35,249 nucleotides of DNA from positions 1-35,249 of the forward strand of contig JABWBB010000030.1 of assembly GCA_013360675.1 (NCBI GenBank), given 5' to 3'. A program made the position numbers and the translations under genes. The notes under the pieces were generated by a model. The model did not search any database. It worked only from the letters and a program-made list of their open reading frames with translations, and had not been told where the DNA came from. Position 1 is the first letter of the stretch; every line of letters begins with the position of its first letter. Origin of the DNA: Phycisphaerales bacterium (GTDB lineage: Bacteria; Planctomycetota; Phycisphaerae; Phycisphaerales; UBA1924). Positions 4,946-25,307 of this stretch are shown one piece after another.

Positions 4946-5979
4946 GGCGCGGGCTCCTCGGGCGCGGCGTCGCTGGGCGCGGCATCTTCGGGTGCGATCG
5001 CATCGGCGGGCTTGGGCGATTCACCCATGCCCCAGCCACGCTGCTCGATGATCTCCAGTCCCTCCTGCGCCGAGCGGGTGCCGGGGAACTTGCGCACCAG
5101 GCGTCGGAGCGTGAGGCGTGCCGAGACCGGATCGCCGCGCGTGAGGTACCAGCGCCCCACGCCCAGCACCTGGGCGGCGCGCGATTCGTCGAGGCGGGCC
5201 TGGAGTTCGGGCCCGAGGCCGGCTTCCTGGGCGTGCGCGGGGAACTCTTCGACGAGCGTGTCGATCTGGTAGCGGGCATCGAGCAGCGGGGCCGCGTCGT
5301 AGCGCGGGCCCTTGAACTGCGCGATGTTGGCGTAGATCAGCCGCTGCATGGCCATGGGGCGGGCGTCGGAGTTGGGGAAGTTCTGCAGGAAGACGTCGTA
5401 CGTCTCCGCCGCCCCGCGCAGATCGCGGTTGCGGTAGTAGTAGTCGCCCAGTTCGAGCAGAGCCCGCTCGGCCAGGCGGCTGCCGGGCAGGCGCTCGTTG
5501 ATGCGGATGATGATCTCTTCGGCGATGGGCACGCCCGAATCCATGCGGAAGAGGCCCAGCACCTTCTTGCGCAGGCCGCCCAGATAGAGCAGCGCCACGT
5601 CGAACTCACGCTCGAGGGCCGGGGCGAACATCTCTGACCCCGAGAAGTTCTTGACGACTTCTTCGAAATCGAGCAGGGCGTCGTACTCGTCGCCGTCGGC
5701 GAGCTTGCAGTCGCCGCGCAGGACCAGGGCCTCGGGCACGTAGGCGTTCGAGGTCAGTTCGTAGACCGCCATCCACGCGTCGAGTTCGCGCCGGGCCGCG
5801 CTGATGCGCCCCTCGGCGATCTTGGTGCGGACGCCAGCCATGACGGCGGCGTCGGAGCCGGGCTCGGGGGCCGACTGCTGCACGATCTGCCCCTCGTCAT
5901 CGAGGCGGAAGGTCGATGACTGGGCGCTCGCCGTCGCGCTCAGGCCCAGGAGAATGAACGGTGTCAACCGGCGGAGCAT
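4942..5979 (-). CDS. BamD-like TPR outer-membrane assembly protein
   Basis: 345 residues with a Sec signal peptide (MLRRLTPFILLGLSATASAQ) and TPR-type helical repeats through the body (for example AERALLELGDYYYRNRDLRGAAETYDVFLQNFPNSD and GRWYLTRGDPVSARLTLRRLVRKFPGT, each quoted in part of a repeat). This resembles BamD/YfiO proteins, periplasmic lipoproteins of the beta-barrel assembly machine, but no lipobox cysteine is present, so it is soluble or anchored otherwise. A proline/alanine-rich acidic tail ends the protein. The start at 5979 is fixed by the signal peptide, although that puts the first 83 bases inside the preceding Bfd-like gene in another frame. It has no visible ribosome binding site. 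Stop overlaps the lptE start by 4 bases. Confidence 0.75.
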   Translation of the reverse strand: MLRRLTPFILLGLSATASAQSSTFRLDDEGQIVQQSAPEPGSDAAVMAGVRTKIAEGRISAARRELDAWMAVYELTSNAYVPEALVLRGDCKLADGDEYDALLDFEEVVKNFSGSEMFAPALEREFDVALLYLGGLRKKVLGLFRMDSGVPIAEEIIIRINERLPGSRLAERALLELGDYYYRNRDLRGAAETYDVFLQNFPNSDARPMAMQRLIYANIAQFKGPRYDAAPLLDARYQIDTLVEEFPAHAQEAGLGPELQARLDESRAAQVLGVGRWYLTRGDPVSARLTLRRLVRKFPGTRSAQEGLEIIEQRGWGMGESPKPADAIAPEDAAPSDAAPEEPAP

Positions 5980-6238
5980 CGCGCACAGGATACGCGAGGC
6001 CGGCGCAGCCCGCAGGATCGACCTGGGCCAGCAGCCGCCTCAGCCCCGCCTCGTCCTGGGGGATCCACCGCGTGCGGCCCGTCTTGAGCGTGAGCAGGAT
6101 GTACGGCATGCAGCGCCCGCAGGAGGTCCCGCAGCCCGTCGCCGCCGACAACGCCCCCAGCGACGGGCCCACCCTGCGCGACAGATCCAGCAGCGTGGCG
6201 AAGGTCACGTTGTGGCAGACGCACCGGTCAACGCTCAT
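5897..6238 (-). CDS. Bfd-like [2Fe-2S]-binding protein
   Basis: 113 residues. The N-terminal half has the cysteine pattern of bacterioferritin-associated ferredoxin / NirB-type BFD domains: C6-x-C8 in DRCVCHNVTF and C36-x3-C40-x2-C43 in TGCGTSCGRC. Four of these (C6, C8, C40, C43) would hold a [2Fe-2S] cluster; C36 is extra. Bfd itself reduces bacterioferritin to release iron, but stand-alone relatives have unknown partners. The ATG at 6236-6238 overlaps the stop of the upstream pseudopilin (ATGA). The C-terminal 27 residues are Pro/Arg-rich and are read from the same DNA as the signal peptide of the BamD-like gene, so the true conserved domain ends earlier. Confidence 0.8.
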   Translation of the reverse strand: MSVDRCVCHNVTFATLLDLSRRVGPSLGALSAATGCGTSCGRCMPYILLTLKTGRTRWIPQDEAGLRRLLAQVDPAGCAGLAYPVRDAPPVDTVHSPGPERDGERPVIDLPPR

Positions 6239-7080
6239 CGCCATTCGTCCGCGTCGGGGACGTAGTGCGTGGTGTTGGTCTGACCCGCCGAACCCACGTT
6301 GAACCCGGGCACCACGATCCATTCCGGGCGGCTGACCACCTGCTGGGCCGAACCATCGGCGCGGCTGGTGACGGCGGTGCCCTGGCCCGCCTTGCGCGTG
6401 TGATGCCGGAAGGCGGTCGTGGGCGTGCTGTTGTCGGTCCAGCCCTCGCCGGGCGAATAGAGCTGCGGCGGGTCGAGCAGCGCGCAGTTGCGCGCGGGCT
6501 GCATGGGGAGAAGCGTATCGGCGAAGACAAAGAGGTCGGGCGTGCGCACGATATCGCTCAGGCGTCGCCACGGGCGAAAGCCGATCGTCGCGCCCCAGCC
6601 GGGCGTCTTGGCGGGGGAAAGGTAATACCCGTTGTAGCCGTAGGTCGAGGTGGGCTCGTTGCTCGCCCCCTGCGGGCGGTAGGAGCCCCAGGGCTGGCTG
6701 ACGCACTCAAAGACCGACTTGCGCGCCAGCTCCGCGCCCAGGTAGGGCCCGATGAACCCGCGCGAGAGATCCACGGGCGATGAGGGCGTGCCGTGCGTGC
6801 CCCACCAGAAGACCTGCGGCCCGCCGCCGATGTCGGCCTCGGACCAGTAGGCCAGCGGCATGGCGCGGTCCTGGTAATCGTTGGCGTAGAGCGACCAGGC
6901 GATGATGAGCTGGTGCTGATTGCTGAGGCACGAGGCGATGCGTGCCGCCTCTCGCGCCGAGCGCAGCGCGGGGATCAGCAGCCCGATGAGCAGCATGACC
7001 ACGCCCAAGACGACCAGCAGCTCGATCACCGAAAAGGCGCGGCGCGACACGACGCGGCGCTGGGAGGCGGGGCGCGACAC
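6235..7080 (-). CDS. Prepilin-type (pseudopilin) secreted protein with C-terminal DG motif
   Basis: A type II secretion / type IV pilin-like N-terminus, RRAFSVIELLVVLGVV, gives a prepilin cleavage site before F followed by the hydrophobic helix with the conserved Glu at +5. The large C-terminal domain ends with a HHTRKAGQGTAV...RADGSAQQV motif resembling the H-x9-DG motif of the DUF1559-type pseudopilins that are expanded in planctomycetes. I chose the GTG at 7078-7080 (281 residues), which has AGGGA upstream and leaves a 15-residue basic leader; a GTG at 7048-7050 is an alternative. An in-frame ATG at 7200 is less likely because the codons between are unlike the rest of the gene. Its stop overlaps the Bfd-like start. 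Confidence 0.8.
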   Translation of the reverse strand: MSRPASQRRVVSRRAFSVIELLVVLGVVMLLIGLLIPALRSAREAARIASCLSNQHQLIIAWSLYANDYQDRAMPLAYWSEADIGGGPQVFWWGTHGTPSSPVDLSRGFIGPYLGAELARKSVFECVSQPWGSYRPQGASNEPTSTYGYNGYYLSPAKTPGWGATIGFRPWRRLSDIVRTPDLFVFADTLLPMQPARNCALLDPPQLYSPGEGWTDNSTPTTAFRHHTRKAGQGTAVTSRADGSAQQVVSRPEWIVVPGFNVGSAGQTNTTHYVPDADEWR

Positions 7081-7204: not shown

Positions 7205-8836
7205 TTATCCGTCATAGGCGCCGATGGCCCATTCTCCGGCGCGCAACCTCGACAGCAGGAGCACACGGTCGGTCTCGTTGATGTCGCCATCGGCGTTGAC
7301 ATCGCGGGCGCCGAGGCCCTGCTCCCAGGCGTAGAGGTCATCGATCGAGATTCGCCCGTCCGTATTCACGTCGTAACGGGTCGCGGGATACCCCATGCCG
7401 CGCAGCCCTTGCGCACCGATGCTGAATAGCGTGCCATCGTCGATCGCGGGGGACGCACCCACGCCCTCAACACTCTCCACGAGAAAGCCCGGCATCGACG
7501 GCGAACGCGTGTAATCGAACGCCACCAGCTCTGCACAGGGCGTATACGCCGATGCGCCCGAGGGAGCCACGCCCACGAACACCCGGCGCCGGGCTTGATC
7601 GATCACGCACGCGGGCTGGATCGTCCACCCGCCCACGCGGAGATATTCGCCCGGGTCGATGACGCCGTTGCTGTTCTCGTCGATCCATGAGTCGAGGGCG
7701 CTGTCCCACACGCGCTGGGCATGATCGGCATTGTCCTTATAAAGGGTGATGCTGGGGACGCTGCCAAAGCCGCTCACCCCGCCACTGACGAGAACATACC
7801 CCCCGGAAATGGGGACGGGAGTCGTCGACGTGCGGTTGCTGGCGATGCTCCACGCCAGTTCTCCAGTTCGCGCATTAAGCCTCACCAGCGATGACGAGAA
7901 GAGCCCACCCCAGAAGTGGTACGACGCGGCGTAGAGCGCGGGGTCTTGCCCCACGCTTGCGGGCGACGTCACGCACACGCCCCCGTAGTACCCATGCCCC
8001 TCAGGGTTGGGCGCAACAAAAGCGGGCGCGGGCGTCACGCCAGCGTCGGCGGGGAAGGCCAGGAGTTCACCCGGGCCGAAGAAAAAATCACCCGATGTCG
8101 CCACGTACACCAGACCCAGGCCGCCCTCTCGCTTCGAGAGATACGCGGGCGTGTTGCCGCTGGTCGAGCCGATCATCGCGCTCCAGACGATCGCGCCGGG
8201 CTGATACGGGTTCTGGGCCGCGTGAAATGCATCGACGTTGAGGCAGAGCAGGCGACCGTCGCCGCCGGTGCTGAAATCGGTGATGAACAGGCGGTTGGAG
8301 TGGCCCAGATCATCGGTGACCAGCGGCGAGGCATTGACCACCGACGCGCCCAGCGGAGTTTGCCATCGCTGCTGACCTGTCTGGGCATTGATGCAGGTGA
8401 CGAACGAACCCGAGGCGACATAGACCGACGCCGTGCGCACGTCGTAGCAGGGGCTCGACCACGACTCGAGCACCGGCGCGGGGATCGGGGCGGCCCAGCC
8501 GGGCGTGCCGCTGTCGCGCGAGAAGCAGAACAGCCGCCACTGGGCGCCCTGCCCCGGGGGCGTCACGCGCCCGATGGCGAAGACGCTGTCCTTGCTCAGC
8601 ACCACGCCCGACTGCCCATGAAACGTGATCGCCAGGCCCGAGGCATCGGTGGCACGGGTCCAGGCGTGCAGAGAAAGGTCGGGCAGGCACCCCTCGATCA
8701 CGGACACACGGCTCGGCGTGCGCGCGAAGCTGGCCCAGCCGTCCGTGGGGCCACTGGCGTGCGCGCCCGGTGCGACAAGCGTGAGAAGGATGATCACCCA
8801 CAGGCCCGGGGCGATACCGCGGGCACACGCGTTCAT
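7205..8836 (-). CDS. Secreted PQQ-like beta-propeller protein with C-terminal dockerin
   Basis: 543 residues. A signal peptide (LWVIILLTLVAPGAHAS) is followed by repeated beta-propeller blades of the PQQ-binding-like type (SVYVASGSFVTCINAQTGQQ, VRLNARTGELAWSIAS, each with the xxLDAxTGxxxW signature). An EF-hand-like calcium loop DENSNGVIDPGE sits between blades. The last 57 residues are a type I dockerin with two calcium loops (D489-V-N491-T-D493-G and D512-V-N514-A-D516-G). Dockerins bind cohesins, or in planctomycetes may serve as surface anchors; no cohesin is in the window. The gene starts 49 bases after the PEP-CTERM-like gene, so it is probably in the same B12-riboswitch-controlled transcript. 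Ligand unknown. Start set by the signal peptide. Confidence 0.85.
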   Translation of the reverse strand: MNACARGIAPGLWVIILLTLVAPGAHASGPTDGWASFARTPSRVSVIEGCLPDLSLHAWTRATDASGLAITFHGQSGVVLSKDSVFAIGRVTPPGQGAQWRLFCFSRDSGTPGWAAPIPAPVLESWSSPCYDVRTASVYVASGSFVTCINAQTGQQRWQTPLGASVVNASPLVTDDLGHSNRLFITDFSTGGDGRLLCLNVDAFHAAQNPYQPGAIVWSAMIGSTSGNTPAYLSKREGGLGLVYVATSGDFFFGPGELLAFPADAGVTPAPAFVAPNPEGHGYYGGVCVTSPASVGQDPALYAASYHFWGGLFSSSLVRLNARTGELAWSIASNRTSTTPVPISGGYVLVSGGVSGFGSVPSITLYKDNADHAQRVWDSALDSWIDENSNGVIDPGEYLRVGGWTIQPACVIDQARRRVFVGVAPSGASAYTPCAELVAFDYTRSPSMPGFLVESVEGVGASPAIDDGTLFSIGAQGLRGMGYPATRYDVNTDGRISIDDLYAWEQGLGARDVNADGDINETDRVLLLSRLRAGEWAIGAYDG

Positions 8837-8885
8837 AATCGCCTGCGAGCGCCTTTCGACGGCTCGCAAGCGGATCCTCTCCCAA

Positions 8886-9683
8886 CTACAGGCAGCGGCG
8901 ACGGCGCAGGCCCGCCCCCGCAAACATTCCAAGCAAAGCCAGCACGCCCGGCGTCGGCGCGACGGCCGCCAGGGCGTCGATCTGAAAGGCCGCCGGGTTT
9001 GACGACAGATTCGTGAAGCGCACGAACGAGACCGATCCAAGCCCGAAGGCCCCGATGTCGACGCCCGCCCCGCCGCCCGAGCCCTTGTAGCCCGCGATGA
9101 TCTGCGCGAAGGTCTTGCCCATCGGGTCAAAGGCCGGATCGACCGGGCGTGTGAAATCCGAGAGGACGTTGCCTGGCGCGACGGAATACGGATCGGTGAG
9201 ATCGAGGTAGCCCAGCGTGGGGAAAAGCCTGTCGGGGGCGATGCCCGTCGCCGTCACCCAGACCTGCCCATCGCTGCTGAGCTCGACGCGTGCGGCGCCG
9301 CTCTGGCCGAAAAGCCCGCCCACGATGCCGTTGGGGTAATCGATGTCGATGAACCCGGCGTTACCGAAGATCAGCAGATCGATGCCGTAGGGATTGGCGG
9401 GGTTATTGAGGACCGGCTCATCGAAGGCGAGGGTGAGATGCCCCCCGCCGCCGATCGAGACGAGTTCGGTCTCCATCCAAGCGGGGTTGAACGGGGTGAC
9501 CGCGCCCGGAAAGACACCCACCCCGGTGAAGCGGGTAGGCTGACCCAGCGCGGTGCTGGGATTGGTATAGGTCCCTGCGCCCAGCCCCGGGTTGTAAGAG
9601 ATGACGCGGTCGGCCCACGGATCGGCCGCCATGATCGCGGGGGTCATGCCCCCCACCAGCAACGCCACAATAACGACACGCAT
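8886..9683 (-). CDS. Secreted PEP-CTERM-like surface protein, first gene after the B12 riboswitch
   Basis: 265 residues. Signal peptide MRVVIVALLVGGMTPAIMA, then a beta-rich domain beginning ADPWADRVISYNPG, with GHLTLAFDEPVLNNPANPYG, GIDLLIFGNAGFIDIDYPNG and ARVELSSDGQVWVTATG, reminiscent of discoidin-like or lectin-like extracellular modules, and a PEP-CTERM-like tail (TPGVLALLGMFAGAGLRRRR) for membrane retention and sorting. GGAGGT lies 6 bases before the ATG, a strong start. The only upstream element within 550 bases is the cobalamin riboswitch, which makes this a B12-regulated surface protein. I know of no proven function; B12 or cobamide binding is an inference from regulation. Confidence 0.85.
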   Translation of the reverse strand: MRVVIVALLVGGMTPAIMAADPWADRVISYNPGLGAGTYTNPSTALGQPTRFTGVGVFPGAVTPFNPAWMETELVSIGGGGHLTLAFDEPVLNNPANPYGIDLLIFGNAGFIDIDYPNGIVGGLFGQSGAARVELSSDGQVWVTATGIAPDRLFPTLGYLDLTDPYSVAPGNVLSDFTRPVDPAFDPMGKTFAQIIAGYKGSGGGAGVDIGAFGLGSVSFVRFTNLSSNPAAFQIDALAAVAPTPGVLALLGMFAGAGLRRRRCL

Positions 9684-9722
9684 GCCAGACCTCCGGTCCC
9701 GATTCGCGCGGGACAACGCACG

Positions 9723-9740
9723 AAAAAACCCGGTGCGGGT
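9723..9740 (-). terminator. Intrinsic terminator in the B12 riboswitch leader
   Basis: Read on the minus strand, ACCCG-CAC-CGGGT forms a 5-bp GC stem with a 3-base loop (9728-9740), followed at once by TTTTTT (9723-9728). It lies between the cobalamin aptamer and the ribosome binding site of the PEP-CTERM-like gene, 40 bases before its ATG, exactly where a riboswitch expression-platform terminator belongs. The stem is short, so strength is uncertain. Confidence 0.55.
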
Positions 9741-9883
9741 GGCCTTGCTCTGCGATGTGAAGTGAGTCGGCGAGGCGGCGCGACCAGAAGACGGCGGCGC
9801 ACCTGCCGGTCTCCCTTCGCCCGTGGCATGGGCCCGGCGTGCAACGCCTTCCCATCGCCGCGGGCCCGCGAGGGGCCGCCAGC

Positions 9884-10118
9884 ACGTCGTCGGCAGGTCT
9901 TCCGGCTTCGGGCTCCGCTGGCGTGGCCTTCCCAATCTTGTCGCTCCCGACACGCGTCGGAATCCGATTCGATCAGTGGCCGGGAGGCTCGTCGTGGCCT
10001 CCCTCAACGCTCAACATCAGCACCCGTTACGGCGGCGCGTCCGCGGTGGCATTTCACCACGCTTCCCTGTTTCACCCGGAGCCCCCGGCCACGAATACGC
10101 CGAAAACTCCGAGCACCG
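9884..10118 (-). ncRNA. Cobalamin (B12) riboswitch
   Basis: On the minus strand the hallmark elements occur in order. The 5' part reads ACAGGGAAGCGTGGTGAAAT, matching the conserved AGGGAA...GGTGAAA block, followed by GCCACCGCGGACGCGCCGCC then GTAACGG, the equivalent of the GC...CCCGCnACTGTnA block. After an expanded variable region comes the B12 box GAAGCCGGAAGACCTGCC at 9892-9909, differing from the consensus at one or two positions. Such aptamers bind adenosyl- or hydroxocobalamin and switch off genes for B12 uptake or synthesis. The ends are approximate. The gene controlled is the PEP-CTERM-like protein at 9683, and probably the propeller gene after it. Confidence 0.93.
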
Positions 10119-10129
10119 ATGACGCATTC

Positions 10130-10157
10130 AGCCTAGCAAACCACGCCCGTGTGTCAA
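10130..10157 (-). promoter_or_regulatory. Predicted sigma-70-type promoter of the B12-riboswitch transcript
   Basis: A perfect -35 box TTGACA (minus strand, 10152-10157) is separated by 16 bases from TAGGCT (10130-10135) as a weaker -10 box. The predicted start at about 10123 is a few bases before the first recognisable riboswitch nucleotides, so position and orientation agree with the aptamer. Confidence 0.55.
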
Positions 10158-17572: not shown

Positions 17573-19621
17573 TCACACGACCCGGTCCTCCTTCGCAATC
17601 CCCAGCGCCGGGCGCACATCCACCTGCACCACCACCGCGCCTGTCTTTTCGCGGTGCAGGCGCTTGGCCTCTTCGGGGTCGACATAATCACTGTGACAGG
17701 TGGCCTTTTCGCCCTGCTTATCCGCGCCAACGGCCTTCTTGGTCTTGCTCGCCAACTTATGAATCTCATCGGGCGAGAGCACGCCGCGCTTGGCCAGGAT
17801 CTCTTGCTGTTCGGGGGTGAGGGCCGCGCTCTTGACGGGCGCCCCGGCCTTGCCGCCGGCCCCGACGCGCTCAAACCCCTCGGCCTTGCCGCTGGCGAAC
17901 TCTTGGATCTCCTTGCTGATGCGCACGCTGCACCAGTCGTGCCCGCACATGGCGCAGAAGTCGGTGTCCACATCAAGGTCTTCGTCGTGATACGCCCGTG
18001 CCGTGTCGGGGTCGAACGACAGCTCAAAGTGCTTCTGCCAGTTCAGGGCGGCACGTGCCTTGGTCAACTCATCATCGCGGTCGCGCGTGCCGGGGATGCC
18101 CAGCGCAACGTCCGCAGCGTGGGCCGCGATCTTGTACGCGATGCAACCCTGCTTCACGTCGTCCTTCTTGGGCAGGCCCAGGTGCTCCTTGGGCGTGACG
18201 TAGCACAGCATCGCCGCCCCGTGATAGGCCATCGCCGTTGCGCCGATGCAACTGGTGATGTGGTCATACCCGGGGAACATGTCCGTCACCAGCGGGCCCA
18301 GCACATAGAACGGCGCGCCGTGGCAGAGCGTCCGCTGCACCTTGGCGTTCCACTCGATCTGATCAAACGGCACGTGCCCGGGCCCCTCGATCATCACCTG
18401 CACGCCCTTGCGCCACGCCCGCTCGGTCAACTCACCCAGCGTTTCGAGTTCGGCGATCTGGGCGGCGTCGGTCGCGTCGGCCAGCCCGCCCGGGCGCAGC
18501 CCGTCGCCGATGCTGAACGTCACGTCGCTCTCGCGCAAGATGTCGCAGATGTCCTCCCAGCGTTCATACATGATGTTCTCGCGGCTGTGCACGAGCATCC
18601 ACTTGGCCAGCAGCGACCCGCCACGCGAGACGATCCCGATCAACCGGTTCTTCACATACTTCAGGTGCCCCCGCCGCACGCCCGCGTGGATCGTGAAGTA
18701 ATCGACCCCCTGCGACGCCTGGCGGCGCAGCCCCTCGTCGATCGTCGCCCAGTCCAGGTCATCGATCTTCTTGCCGATGATCATCGAATAGATCGGCACC
18801 GTGCCGATGGGCACCGTGCTGTGGCGGCAGAACGCCGCACGGCATTCGTCCAGGTTCCCGCCCGTGCTCAGGTCCATCACCGTGTCCGCGCCCCAGCGCA
18901 CGGCCCAGTCGAGTTTCTCGAGTTCCTCGTGCGTGCCGCTGCTCACGGGGCTCGCCCCCATGTTCGCGTTCACCTTGGTCAGGCTCGCCCGCCCGATCGC
19001 CATCGGGTCGAGACGATGCGTCAGGTGGTTCACGTTCGCCGGGATCACCATCCGCCCCGCGGCGACCTCATCCCGCACCGCCGCCGCACCCTGCCCCGGG
19101 AAGAGCACATCAAAGTGCGGCTCGCGCTGGGCCACGCGCGCCATCTGCGGCGTCACGATCCCCAGGCGCGCACACTCGAGTTGCGTCACCGGCGCAAAGC
19201 CCTTGGGATAGATCACCCGCACGCGGCGCGCCATTCCATCCGCCCCCGCGGCGTAGGAAAACTCGACGAACTCGCGCGCATCGCCCAGGCAACTCGTGCA
19301 CCCCTCGCCCTTGGCCGCGGGGAACGCACGCGAGCAGGCGTGCGGCACGTGCGGGTTGGCGCTGCGCACGTCGCCCGACCAGGGGCCCGCCTCGCCCACG
19401 CCAAGATCGACCACGCTCCACCCCTCGGGCAGAAAGTCCCACGCGGTCTTGTCGCTGGGTGGCGGCATGCCGGGCGTGTCGGGGCTGCTGAACGTGCGCG
19501 GCCCGCCGATGTTGGGCGCGTTGGCGAACGAGCCGGGCGTGGTGACGCCGCTCGTGGTGCCGGGGTTGCGGGCGCCGTGAGTGGGGGCGCGAAAACGGTT
19601 GTGGGTCGAAGCCTGCGTCAT
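17573..19621 (-). CDS. thiC: Phosphomethylpyrimidine synthase ThiC
   Basis: Radical-SAM enzyme that converts aminoimidazole ribotide to hydroxymethylpyrimidine phosphate in thiamine synthesis. 682 residues. Characteristic stretches are [69 protein letters not shown] and the atypical C-terminal [4Fe-4S] motif C556-x2-C559-x4-C564 (CAMCGHDWC). About 118 residues follow the cluster, more than in E. coli ThiC. The first 60 residues are a Ser/Thr/Pro-rich leader. The start at 19621 is fixed by GGAGG 8 bases upstream, inside a TPP riboswitch. It is alone on its strand; other thiamine genes are not in the window. Confidence 0.97.
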
Positions 19622-19623
19622 GG

Positions 19624-19711
19624 CGCTTCCCTCCGCCGGTGCGAACCGGTTCAGGTTCAACGGGTGCATCTCAGCGGTCGGCCCCGTGTGGCCGCCGCGC
19701 CCCGAGCGATA
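19624..19711 (-). ncRNA. TPP riboswitch (THI element) of thiC
   Basis: The minus strand carries the conserved parts in order: CTCGGGG at the 5' side, CCGCTGAGATGCACCC, GTTGAACCTGAACCGG and finally CGGAGGGAAG. These match the TPP aptamer (CTGAGA...ACCC...GAACCTGATC...GCGnAGGGAA). The final conserved strand contains GGAGG, the ribosome binding site of thiC, and ends only a few bases before its ATG. TPP binding would therefore hide the ribosome binding site directly, giving translational repression. Confidence 0.95.
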
Positions 19712-19714
19712 CCC

Positions 19715-22946: not shown

Positions 22947-24131
22947 TTACTCAAAGTCCCTTCCCGCCAGCCCTCCAACAGTCGCAAGGCCGGGTACGGG
23001 AATCGATCCGTACGGTCGATTGATCGTGGATTCCGTGAAGGCGTCGGTGACGGGTCGCCGAGACGCTCCTCCATCCATCATTACCACGGCTACTCGGCCA
23101 GGATCTTCCCCACGCCGCCCAGCACCGAAATAGTCCGAAAGCAAGTGCAGGTTCAGCACTTTTTGGGCCGGGAACAGGGCTTCGTGCACTCGGACACTCC
23201 GGTACAACGCCAAGTCTGTCGGCGGCGTTTCGCCACGCCAGTATTCGGGCGCCGCGAACGCCCCTTGCGTCATCCGATACGGAGTCATAAAGTGAACGGA
23301 TTGTCTTGATGACGCGCCGTACTCGCCCGGTTGATCCACGTCTGCGCGCTCCGAGAAATAGGAGGGGTACAGCAGGTTGATGTAATACGCACTCTGTGAG
23401 AAGTAGCTCGCCGGAGCAGGTGTCTGATCCAGGGTCAGACCTCTCCACGGCTCGCCCGCATATCCAAGGTAAGGCAGCGCTTCCCTCCATTCCTCAGCGT
23501 ATGACCACACCGCGGCGTGAAGCTGCCGTAAGGTCGATACCGTGCGTACCTGGCGCGCGCTAATCTTTGAACGGCTGAGCATCGGCAACGCCAGTGCCAG
23601 CAGCACGCCAAATACAACGATCACCACAAGCAACTCCACGAGCGAAAACGCACGCGCCGATTCACTCCCTCCCTCGGTCGGTTCTTCGGCGTGAGCCTCG
23701 CTTTGCTTGCTCCCTTTGATCTCAAACACGAGTAGAAGACTCACACCCAGCAATCCCAGGTTGCGAATTGTCCCCCACCAGGCAGTCGCAATGCCGTCGC
23801 CTGACTCCGCACTTGCATCGCTGACTACTCCCGCGATCATGCCGAGCCGAATAGTGGCTCCGACCAAGATCGCGAAGAAAATGGCGGCCAACATGGCCGA
23901 TACCCGCCGCCATCGCCCCGAGAGAATGACGAACCCTAACGCCCCCTCAACGCACGTGAAGCCCGCCGCGCCGACCAAGAACCACGACGTGCGGCCTGTC
24001 GCCGGCAGCAACCCGTCTATCGCCTCAAGAACTCCCGAGGGATTGATCGCATTGGCCGCAGCGGCCCAGAGCAGCACACCCCCGATCAAGACTCGCGCAA
24101 TCTGTTGCAAGCCTTTACTGCTGGCGGACAT
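22947..24131 (-). CDS. Fusion of a MauE/DoxX-like membrane domain with an internal prepilin-type pseudopilin
   Basis: 394 residues in one frame. Residues 8-137 form a four-helix membrane domain resembling MauE/DoxX proteins (IARVLIGGVLLWAAAANAIN, VEGALGFVILSGRWRR, AMLAAIFFAILVGATIRLG, WWGTIRNLGLLGVSLLLVFE), but without the usual CGCFG redox cysteines. After a hydrophilic linker, ARA161|F162 followed by SLVELLVVIVVFGVLLALAL is a textbook prepilin cleavage site and pilin helix, and the rest is a pseudopilin-like domain with VAVVMMDGGA near the end. The ATG at 24131 has GGAG 8 bases upstream and starts 2 bases after the previous gene. A prepilin signal in mid-protein is unusual; the linker would lie on the cytoplasmic side if both ends of the membrane domain do. 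Confidence 0.8.
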   Translation of the reverse strand: MSASSKGLQQIARVLIGGVLLWAAAANAINPSGVLEAIDGLLPATGRTSWFLVGAAGFTCVEGALGFVILSGRWRRVSAMLAAIFFAILVGATIRLGMIAGVVSDASAESGDGIATAWWGTIRNLGLLGVSLLLVFEIKGSKQSEAHAEEPTEGGSESARAFSLVELLVVIVVFGVLLALALPMLSRSKISARQVRTVSTLRQLHAAVWSYAEEWREALPYLGYAGEPWRGLTLDQTPAPASYFSQSAYYINLLYPSYFSERADVDQPGEYGASSRQSVHFMTPYRMTQGAFAAPEYWRGETPPTDLALYRSVRVHEALFPAQKVLNLHLLSDYFGAGRRGEDPGRVAVVMMDGGASRRPVTDAFTESTINRPYGSIPVPGLATVGGLAGRDFE

Positions 24132-24133
24132 CC

Positions 24134-25009
24134 TCAATACTCCCAGCGTGCGCTCGACATGTCTGCCTTTTCATAGTTGCCGTGGCAGTACCCGTCGATC
24201 CACCACCCTCCCGTTTTAGGGTCTTGGTACATCATCAACTTTGCAGGCCTTCGCTTGCCGTCCACGAAATCGATCACAAAGCCGACCGTAGCCGTCTTCA
24301 CTTTCCCATACTGCGCCATCAACTCGTCGTAACTCACGCCCGGTCGCCACCACGAATGCGAGATCATCAGAGGCCCGCCATAACTGAGCACGTCTCCGAG
24401 CGCGCCGTCTACGGCGGCTCGCCCGGGGTCTGCCCGAGTCGCCGTGCGCACAACGATTCGCAGATCATCGGGCCCGACGCCAACCCCGCTCGGCCTGGTG
24501 CGCCCCTTCTCGAACGCGTCCTGGCCAAGCATCATCTCCGCAAAGACATCGTCCCAGGACGCTCCCGCATCGAGGGGCTTGTCGAGATAGGTGCGATAGG
24601 CGTCGTCAAGAAACCACTGTTTCCGAAGTTCTTCAAGTGGCCGACGCCGGTACCCCTGTTCCTCTCGCCACAGAATGAACTGTGCGGGGTCAGAAGACCT
24701 CCCGAATCGCAAGCCGAGGAACTTCTCGATCGTTGTGCTGATTCTCCTGGCTTCCTCGGATGATAATCCACTGCCCGCCTTTCTGGCGGCTTGATGCAAC
24801 GATTCACGGATCGTGTCCGACTCATCGATCCCCGCCATCGTGGCCCTGGCGATGGATGCCACGCCGCGGGCCCGCAGCACCTCGGCATCGTCTCTCGACG
24901 ACGCGGACTGGCTCATCCGCGCGCCCCTCCAATAGGTCACGCCACCGATGAGCAAGCCCGCAGCAACCACGCCCGCGATCACATTAAGATTGGCACGGCT
25001 GAATCCCAT
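24134..25009 (-). CDS. Membrane-anchored protein of unknown function in the Cys-rich peptide operon
   Basis: 291 residues. A single N-terminal membrane helix (LNVIAGVVAAGLLIGGVTYW) precedes a periplasmic domain of about 260 residues rich in charged residues and tryptophan (FILWREEQGYRRRPLEEL, GGPLMISHSWWRPGVSYDEL, YQDPKTGGWWIDGYCHGNYE). I recognise no family. It begins 10 bases after the Cys-rich mini-protein gene and ends 2 bases before the MauE-prepilin gene, so the three are one operon. Third codon positions are less GC-rich than in most neighbours. A longer in-frame start exists at 25162, but that part overlaps and is antisense-like to the Cys-rich gene region. Confidence 0.75.
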   Translation of the reverse strand: MGFSRANLNVIAGVVAAGLLIGGVTYWRGARMSQSASSRDDAEVLRARGVASIARATMAGIDESDTIRESLHQAARKAGSGLSSEEARRISTTIEKFLGLRFGRSSDPAQFILWREEQGYRRRPLEELRKQWFLDDAYRTYLDKPLDAGASWDDVFAEMMLGQDAFEKGRTRPSGVGVGPDDLRIVVRTATRADPGRAAVDGALGDVLSYGGPLMISHSWWRPGVSYDELMAQYGKVKTATVGFVIDFVDGKRRPAKLMMYQDPKTGGWWIDGYCHGNYEKADMSSARWEY

Positions 25010-25019
25010 GGCATGCTCG

Positions 25020-25307
25020 CTATTGGCACAGCGTGCAAAGACTGCTCCCGCCGCAGTCCGCGCCCGCCATGCACGCCGCGGTGTACACCGCCGGACTCGC
25101 CCCATTGGAGCAGCAGCATCGGGAGTCCCCGGACGGGCACGTGTCATTACCGGCGGCTCCACAACTTGTCAACGAACAATCCCATTTCTTCGGCCCCATG
25201 GCGATGCCTCCCCCACCGCCTACTTCATCAGCATGACTCATGCCGGCACCCGCGACCAACATCGAGAACATCAGACTTGTATTCCAAACGATCTTCTTCA
25301 GTTGCAT
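25020..25307 (-). CDS. Secreted cysteine-rich mini-protein
   Basis: 95 residues. A signal peptide (NTSLMFSMLVAGAGMSHA) is followed by a mature chain of about 68 residues with ten cysteines, including a CCC triplet (SRCCCSNG) and a C-terminal SSLCTLCQ. The even number suggests five disulfides in the periplasm or outside. A glycine run (VGGGGGIAMG) follows the signal peptide. No family recognised; methylamine dehydrogenase small subunits are also Cys-rich and need MauE, but the length and motifs do not fit well. AAAGGAGT lies 5 bases before the ATG. It is the first gene of the operon and sits directly behind the 18-G promoter spacer. Confidence 0.78.
   Translation of the reverse strand: MQLKKIVWNTSLMFSMLVAGAGMSHADEVGGGGGIAMGPKKWDCSLTSCGAAGNDTCPSGDSRCCCSNGASPAVYTAACMAGADCGGSSLCTLCQ

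Follow-up and report, generated by a model that had tools for sequence, protein, structure and literature searches.

A riboswitch-headed operon of a Phycisphaerales bacterium that probably scavenges cobamides and carries a recurrent pseudopilin

Bacteria that depend on B12 and have no pathway for its synthesis have to get cobamides past the outer membrane, for which the TonB-dependent receptor BtuB is the known route. In Bacteroides thetaiotaomicron the protein BtuG1 has been renamed BtuGH; it consists of a propeller joined to a BtuH domain, and each of the two binds B12 (PMC12751083). In BtuH2, residues 316-593 belong to the domain in which the crystal structure shows B12, and the pair Asn399-x-Phe401 contacts the vitamin (PMC8941943). 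Proteins of the DUF4465 family have also been found experimentally to bind B12 (PMC13398666).

The locus described here lies in a window of 35,249 nucleotides, the whole stretch of DNA that was analysed, from the genome of a Phycisphaerales bacterium. All of its parts are on the minus strand, in the order riboswitch, P1, P2, P3, P4:

9875-10130, minus strand: cobalamin riboswitch aptamer RF00174 (57.4 bits, E 6.9e-12)
9728-9740, minus strand: terminator-like hairpin with a T run, weak, between the aptamer and P1
8886-9683, minus strand: P1, secreted protein of 265 aa with a predicted BtuH B12-binding-domain fold and a PEP-CTERM-like tail
7205-8836, minus strand: P2, secreted protein of 543 aa, predicted eight-bladed BamB/PQQ-type beta-propeller with a dockerin-like tail
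6235-7080, minus strand: P3, prepilin-like pseudopilin with a GTG start at 7080 or slightly downstream
5897-6244, minus strand: P4, small BFD-like [2Fe-2S] protein overlapping the end of P3

We consider this locus to be a cobamide-scavenging operon, with a probability of roughly 0.8. The riboswitch is real and heads an operon larger than P1 and P2: the aptamer proposed in a first-pass annotation of the window matches the Rfam Cobalamin model well above its gathering score of 31.5, covers the whole model (1-189), and is the sole cobalamin riboswitch detected in a scan of the 2.92 Mb genome. That annotation had described a locus of two genes, whose coordinates are right but which ends too early, omitting P3 and P4, both of which recur with the riboswitch in relatives. 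It had also placed a promoter and a terminator around the aptamer. Our search for a sigma-70-like promoter found none for the riboswitch operon, leaving the first of these unsupported, while the second corresponds to a hairpin that must be called weak, since shuffles contain 0.5 terminator-like hairpins on average compared to the one found. Its remark that B12 synthesis and transport genes are absent agrees with what we see in the window.

Elsewhere in the window, a TPP riboswitch (19611-19714, minus strand, 58.2 bits), the only one of its kind detected in the genome, precedes an ORF reading like thiC. A further minus-strand ORF at 22947-24137 seems, from its translation, to join a DoxX/MauE-type membrane domain to a prepilin-like one, and upstream of it is a small Cys-rich secreted protein (25020-25307, minus strand).

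P1 is predicted to fold like the BtuH B12-binding domain. Its AlphaFold model, for which the family alignment held 29 sequences, has a mean pLDDT of 89.6, and the sole Foldseek match in the PDB below 1e-3 is 8blw_B, the BtuG1 of B. thetaiotaomicron. With VIA-align the model matches BtuG1 residues 391-660 at Z 12.2 and BtuH2 residues 316-593 at Z 12.0 (2.7 A over 140 residues), so that the best PDB chains are the B12-binding domains of BtuG1/BtuGH and BtuH2, the next reaching Z 9.3. The runner-up matches have a discoidin/CBM32-like fold, which is common, and a shared fold alone proves no function. A conserved N-x-[FG]-[FY] motif of P1 (N108) resembles, in sequence, the Asn399-x-Phe401 pair of BtuH2. 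Direct sequence comparison gave no link to a solved BtuH structure for P1 or its relatives: the BtuH entries 7biz and 8blw were listed neither by phmmer with P1 (E up to 1) nor by hmmsearch with the P1-family profile (E up to 10) against PDB sequences. The P1 profile does align with a second family found in sister operons (hhalign probability 98.2, E 2.8e-14), which we call BtuH-like because of this link and its operon partners, not because of a solved relative. We also considered P1 as a divergent DUF4465 protein (PF14717) and ruled this out, as P1 has no match in a Pfam search and hhalign aligns the C-terminal tail region only.

Both ends of P1 fit the secreted, PEP-CTERM-like protein of the first-pass annotation, with a Sec-type leader at the start, where the absence of a cysteine lipobox means that there is no lipoprotein signal, and a PEP-CTERM-like tail at the end; this tail does not itself reach PF07589, which related co-operonic proteins do pass. 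P2 starts 49 nt past P1, as had been reported, and passes the PQQ_2 cut-off (PF13360, 34.3 bits against 27.6), so the PQQ-like propeller stands, whereas the dockerin assigned to it scores 19.6, just under the cut-off of 22.9. On its AlphaFold model (pLDDT 85.2), the description that suits P2 best is that of an eight-bladed propeller of the BamB/PQQ type, the type that matches best in a fold search. A relationship of P2 to BtuG, the parallel drawn earlier, is unsupported, with BtuG absent among the matches listed; the Bacteroides-like part of the operon is P1. We infer that P1 binds cobamides, and that P2 does so too.

The association with the riboswitch extends across the order of the window genome. 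A cobalamin riboswitch is present in 94 of its 101 genomes, exactly one in 86 of these 94, and for 74 of the 78 P1-family genes the distance to one is at most 1,789 nt. Of the four that deviate, two belong to genomes with no detected riboswitch and two have theirs on another contig. All 29 P1-homologue loci scanned with Rfam have RF00174 upstream. On named GTDB contigs, a B12-box match (at most 3 mismatches) occurs within 500 nt upstream in 70 of 77 loci compared to 1 on the opposite strand, and Rfam finds a full RF00174 match in 7 of the 10 loci with the weakest boxes, including that of Lacipirellula limnantheis I41. As the genomes of the order are related to one another, these counts are not independent events. 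The L. limnantheis locus (NZ_CP036339.1) reads riboswitch, pseudopilin, AALVID-type dockerin/PEP-CTERM protein, short Cys-rich ORF and P1 homologue.

The most constant gene of these operons is the pseudopilin. P3 itself has the prepilin peptidase motif SRRAFSVIELLVVLGVV and a hydrophobic N-terminal helix, and it matches DUF1559 weakly and GspG/GspH-type models at its N-terminus (for GspG, E 8.3e-4, below the model cut-off); its relatives pass PF07963. With a profile of P3 relatives, 57 of 60 riboswitch loci prove to have a same-strand pseudopilin downstream, as do 60 of the 62 named-contig loci with room for one, some of the sequences counted having also been in the training alignment of the profile. 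The other three of the 60 riboswitch loci are a TonB-receptor-like operon (L108) and two that are cut short or have no recognisable operon (L121 and L122). When the model was built from other families only, P3 scored 147 bits and the other pilins tested from its genome 111, 102 and 54, where the other close pilins, on contig 53, stand alone with no secreted partners in their operon. Directly after the pseudopilin comes a BFD-like 2Fe-2S gene in 21 of the 57 loci, including P4 of the window, which matches PF04324 at E 9.3e-05 and 23.1 bits, under the cut-off of 26.

The genes beside the pseudopilin vary, and include the P1 type, the BtuH-like type, several kinds of propeller, DUF4465 and an AALVID-type protein, for which we found no convincing relative among solved structures. 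Outside the order, operons with the pseudopilin are found both within the same class and in family f32, in which the pseudopilin is the first gene after the riboswitch and a TonB plug is absent from all 4 genomes checked; many riboswitches outside the order precede genes that look like TonB receptors, ABC transporters or propellers, as judged by reading translations rather than by family searches. An inherited neighbourhood without functional meaning, in which a conserved riboswitch happens to lie beside conserved but unrelated surface genes, would be helped by the relatedness of the order's members. We nevertheless regard it as very improbable, as the downstream content changes while riboswitch and pseudopilin stay, in several families and outside the order, and the exchanged parts are repeatedly of B12-binding types.

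Sister operons connect this layout to known B12 proteins. All four DUF4465 genes among the 101 genomes of the order are inside riboswitch operons. One operon, L283 in genome G156, consists of riboswitch, DUF4465, BtuH-like gene, pseudopilin, BtuF, BtuD and BtuC, tightly packed on one strand. Its transporter genes were recognised as Peripla_BP_2, ABC ATPase and FecCD, and the best NCBIfam matches of the last are BtuC models, though below their cut-offs. Genome G156 also has TonB receptors, so L283 is no proof that a pseudopilin replaces BtuB. At another locus (L154), a FecCD gene adjoins a gene reading like metH. Two genomes, G085 and G094, have two cobalamin riboswitches in a row (L105 and L113), the first preceding the pseudopilin and the second a TonB-receptor-like gene, after which come genes that read like ExbB, ExbD and TonB.

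Cobamide capture by the operon is well supported by this combination of sequence and model evidence, because the predicted BtuH fold of P1 is joined by the order-wide riboswitch association and by DUF4465 and btuFCD in sister operons. Surface capture had been claimed for the locus before; the capture is supported on these grounds, and what needs correcting is the extent of the locus and the placing of the BtuG likeness on P2. B12 riboswitches can also control B12-independent isozymes, and one could imagine that the operon serves a B12-dependent or B12-replacing surface process instead of uptake, such as adhesion or electron transfer via the 2Fe-2S protein; P4, as a BFD-like protein, and P2, as a PQQ-type propeller, would suit this. 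Such a role seems improbable given the BtuH-type fold predicted for P1, the DUF4465 and btuFCD genes of the sister operons, and the riboswitch-TonB receptor operons that adjoin the riboswitch-pseudopilin gene in G085 and G094.

A need for external B12 is consistent with the gene content of these genomes. Genes with B12-binding domains are present in all 21 genomes checked, whereas a search for cobI gave no match above the cut-off in 61 genomes and none at all in the family of the window genome. FecCD (BtuC-like) permeases are found in 97 of the 101 genomes of the order, and a TonB-plug receptor is missing from 64, of which 60 have a cobalamin riboswitch when the genome lists are compared. Among the planctomycete genomes that a 2012 survey searched, it detected TonB receptors in just four (PMC3422733). 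The window genome has one TonB-plug receptor, so a TonB route may exist there; its translated neighbours read like a possible substrate-binding protein and a HAMP-type sensor kinase, and the one cobalamin riboswitch of the genome lies away from it.

In the mechanism we propose for cobamide scavenging, low intracellular cobamide would lead the riboswitch to permit expression of the operon, as its family suggests. Secreted P1 would then bind cobamides outside the cell or at its surface with the assistance of P2, and the PEP-CTERM and dockerin tails would hold both proteins nearby, a form of anchoring that is plausible. P3 would become part of a structure resembling a type II secretion system or type IV pilus, which either displays or exports P1 and P2, or helps captured cobamide to cross the outer membrane; a BtuCD(F)-type ABC transporter would then carry it to the cytoplasm for use by B12-dependent enzymes such as MetH. 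In this scheme we infer that B12 represses the operon, that the proteins are located at the surface, and what P3 and P4 do.

The pseudopilin may thus act in display, secretion or outer-membrane uptake. There is slightly less than an even chance that P3 serves only as an adaptor for secretion or as a minor pseudopilin, dedicated to the export of P1 and P2 to the cell surface, and that the cobamide crosses the outer membrane via a porin or another receptor, which would compete with our reading on the pseudopilin only. The GspG/GspH-type matches at the P3 N-terminus speak for such an adaptor, as do the 41 pilin-like genes of the window genome, which make pseudopilins common there. It fits less well with three genomes (G085, G094 and G100) where the pseudopilin follows the riboswitch with no recognised secreted binding protein before it, with its first place in family f32, or with its position directly before btuFCD in L283. 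Taken together, we see export as at least as likely a role for P3 as vitamin transport. A more far-reaching proposal is that Planctomycetota without TonB-dependent receptors import cobamides across the outer membrane by a dedicated pseudopilin structure with BtuH-fold and DUF4465 proteins as capture heads, by analogy with competence pseudopili and DNA; this is speculative and, in our view, rather unlikely.

The layout recurs order-wide, mostly in bacteria without the usual outer-membrane B12 transporter, and is therefore a testable candidate for B12 acquisition there, the riboswitch singling out a concrete and small set of genes for testing. If cobamide scavenging is the correct reading, BtuH-type capture extends from Bacteroidetes to Planctomycetota, and the part of the pseudopilin, which is the novel element of the operon, could reveal a role for such proteins in vitamin acquisition. 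The literature searched on B12 riboswitches contained no paper tying pseudopilins or PEP-CTERM proteins to them in such operons, and that searched on BtuH or cobalamin riboswitches in planctomycetes gave nothing on point.

Among known systems, P1 shares the predicted fold of the B12-binding domain of BtuH2 and BtuGH from B. thetaiotaomicron (PMC8941943, PMC12751083), and like them is secreted and under a cobalamin riboswitch. It differs in having no detectable direct sequence match to them and in carrying a Sec leader and PEP-CTERM-like tail instead of a lipoprotein signal; its operon has no btuB nearby, and the propeller partner, fused in BtuGH, is separate here and of another, eight-bladed BamB-like type. 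DUF4465/BtuJ proteins (PMC13398666) accompany the same pseudopilin in sister riboswitch operons, where they too are secreted and have PEP-CTERM tails; P1 is itself not a DUF4465 protein, the profile alignment being confined to the C-terminal tail region. Uptake by BtuB-BtuFCD has the same regulator, the cobalamin riboswitch, and the same kind of inner-membrane transporter genes as L283, but the operon lacks the outer-membrane TonB-dependent receptor and includes a pseudopilin. Finally, P3 shares the prepilin N-terminus and overall size of the DUF1559/H-X9-DG pseudopilins of Planctomycetota, from which its subfamily is set apart by being tied to the cobalamin riboswitch.
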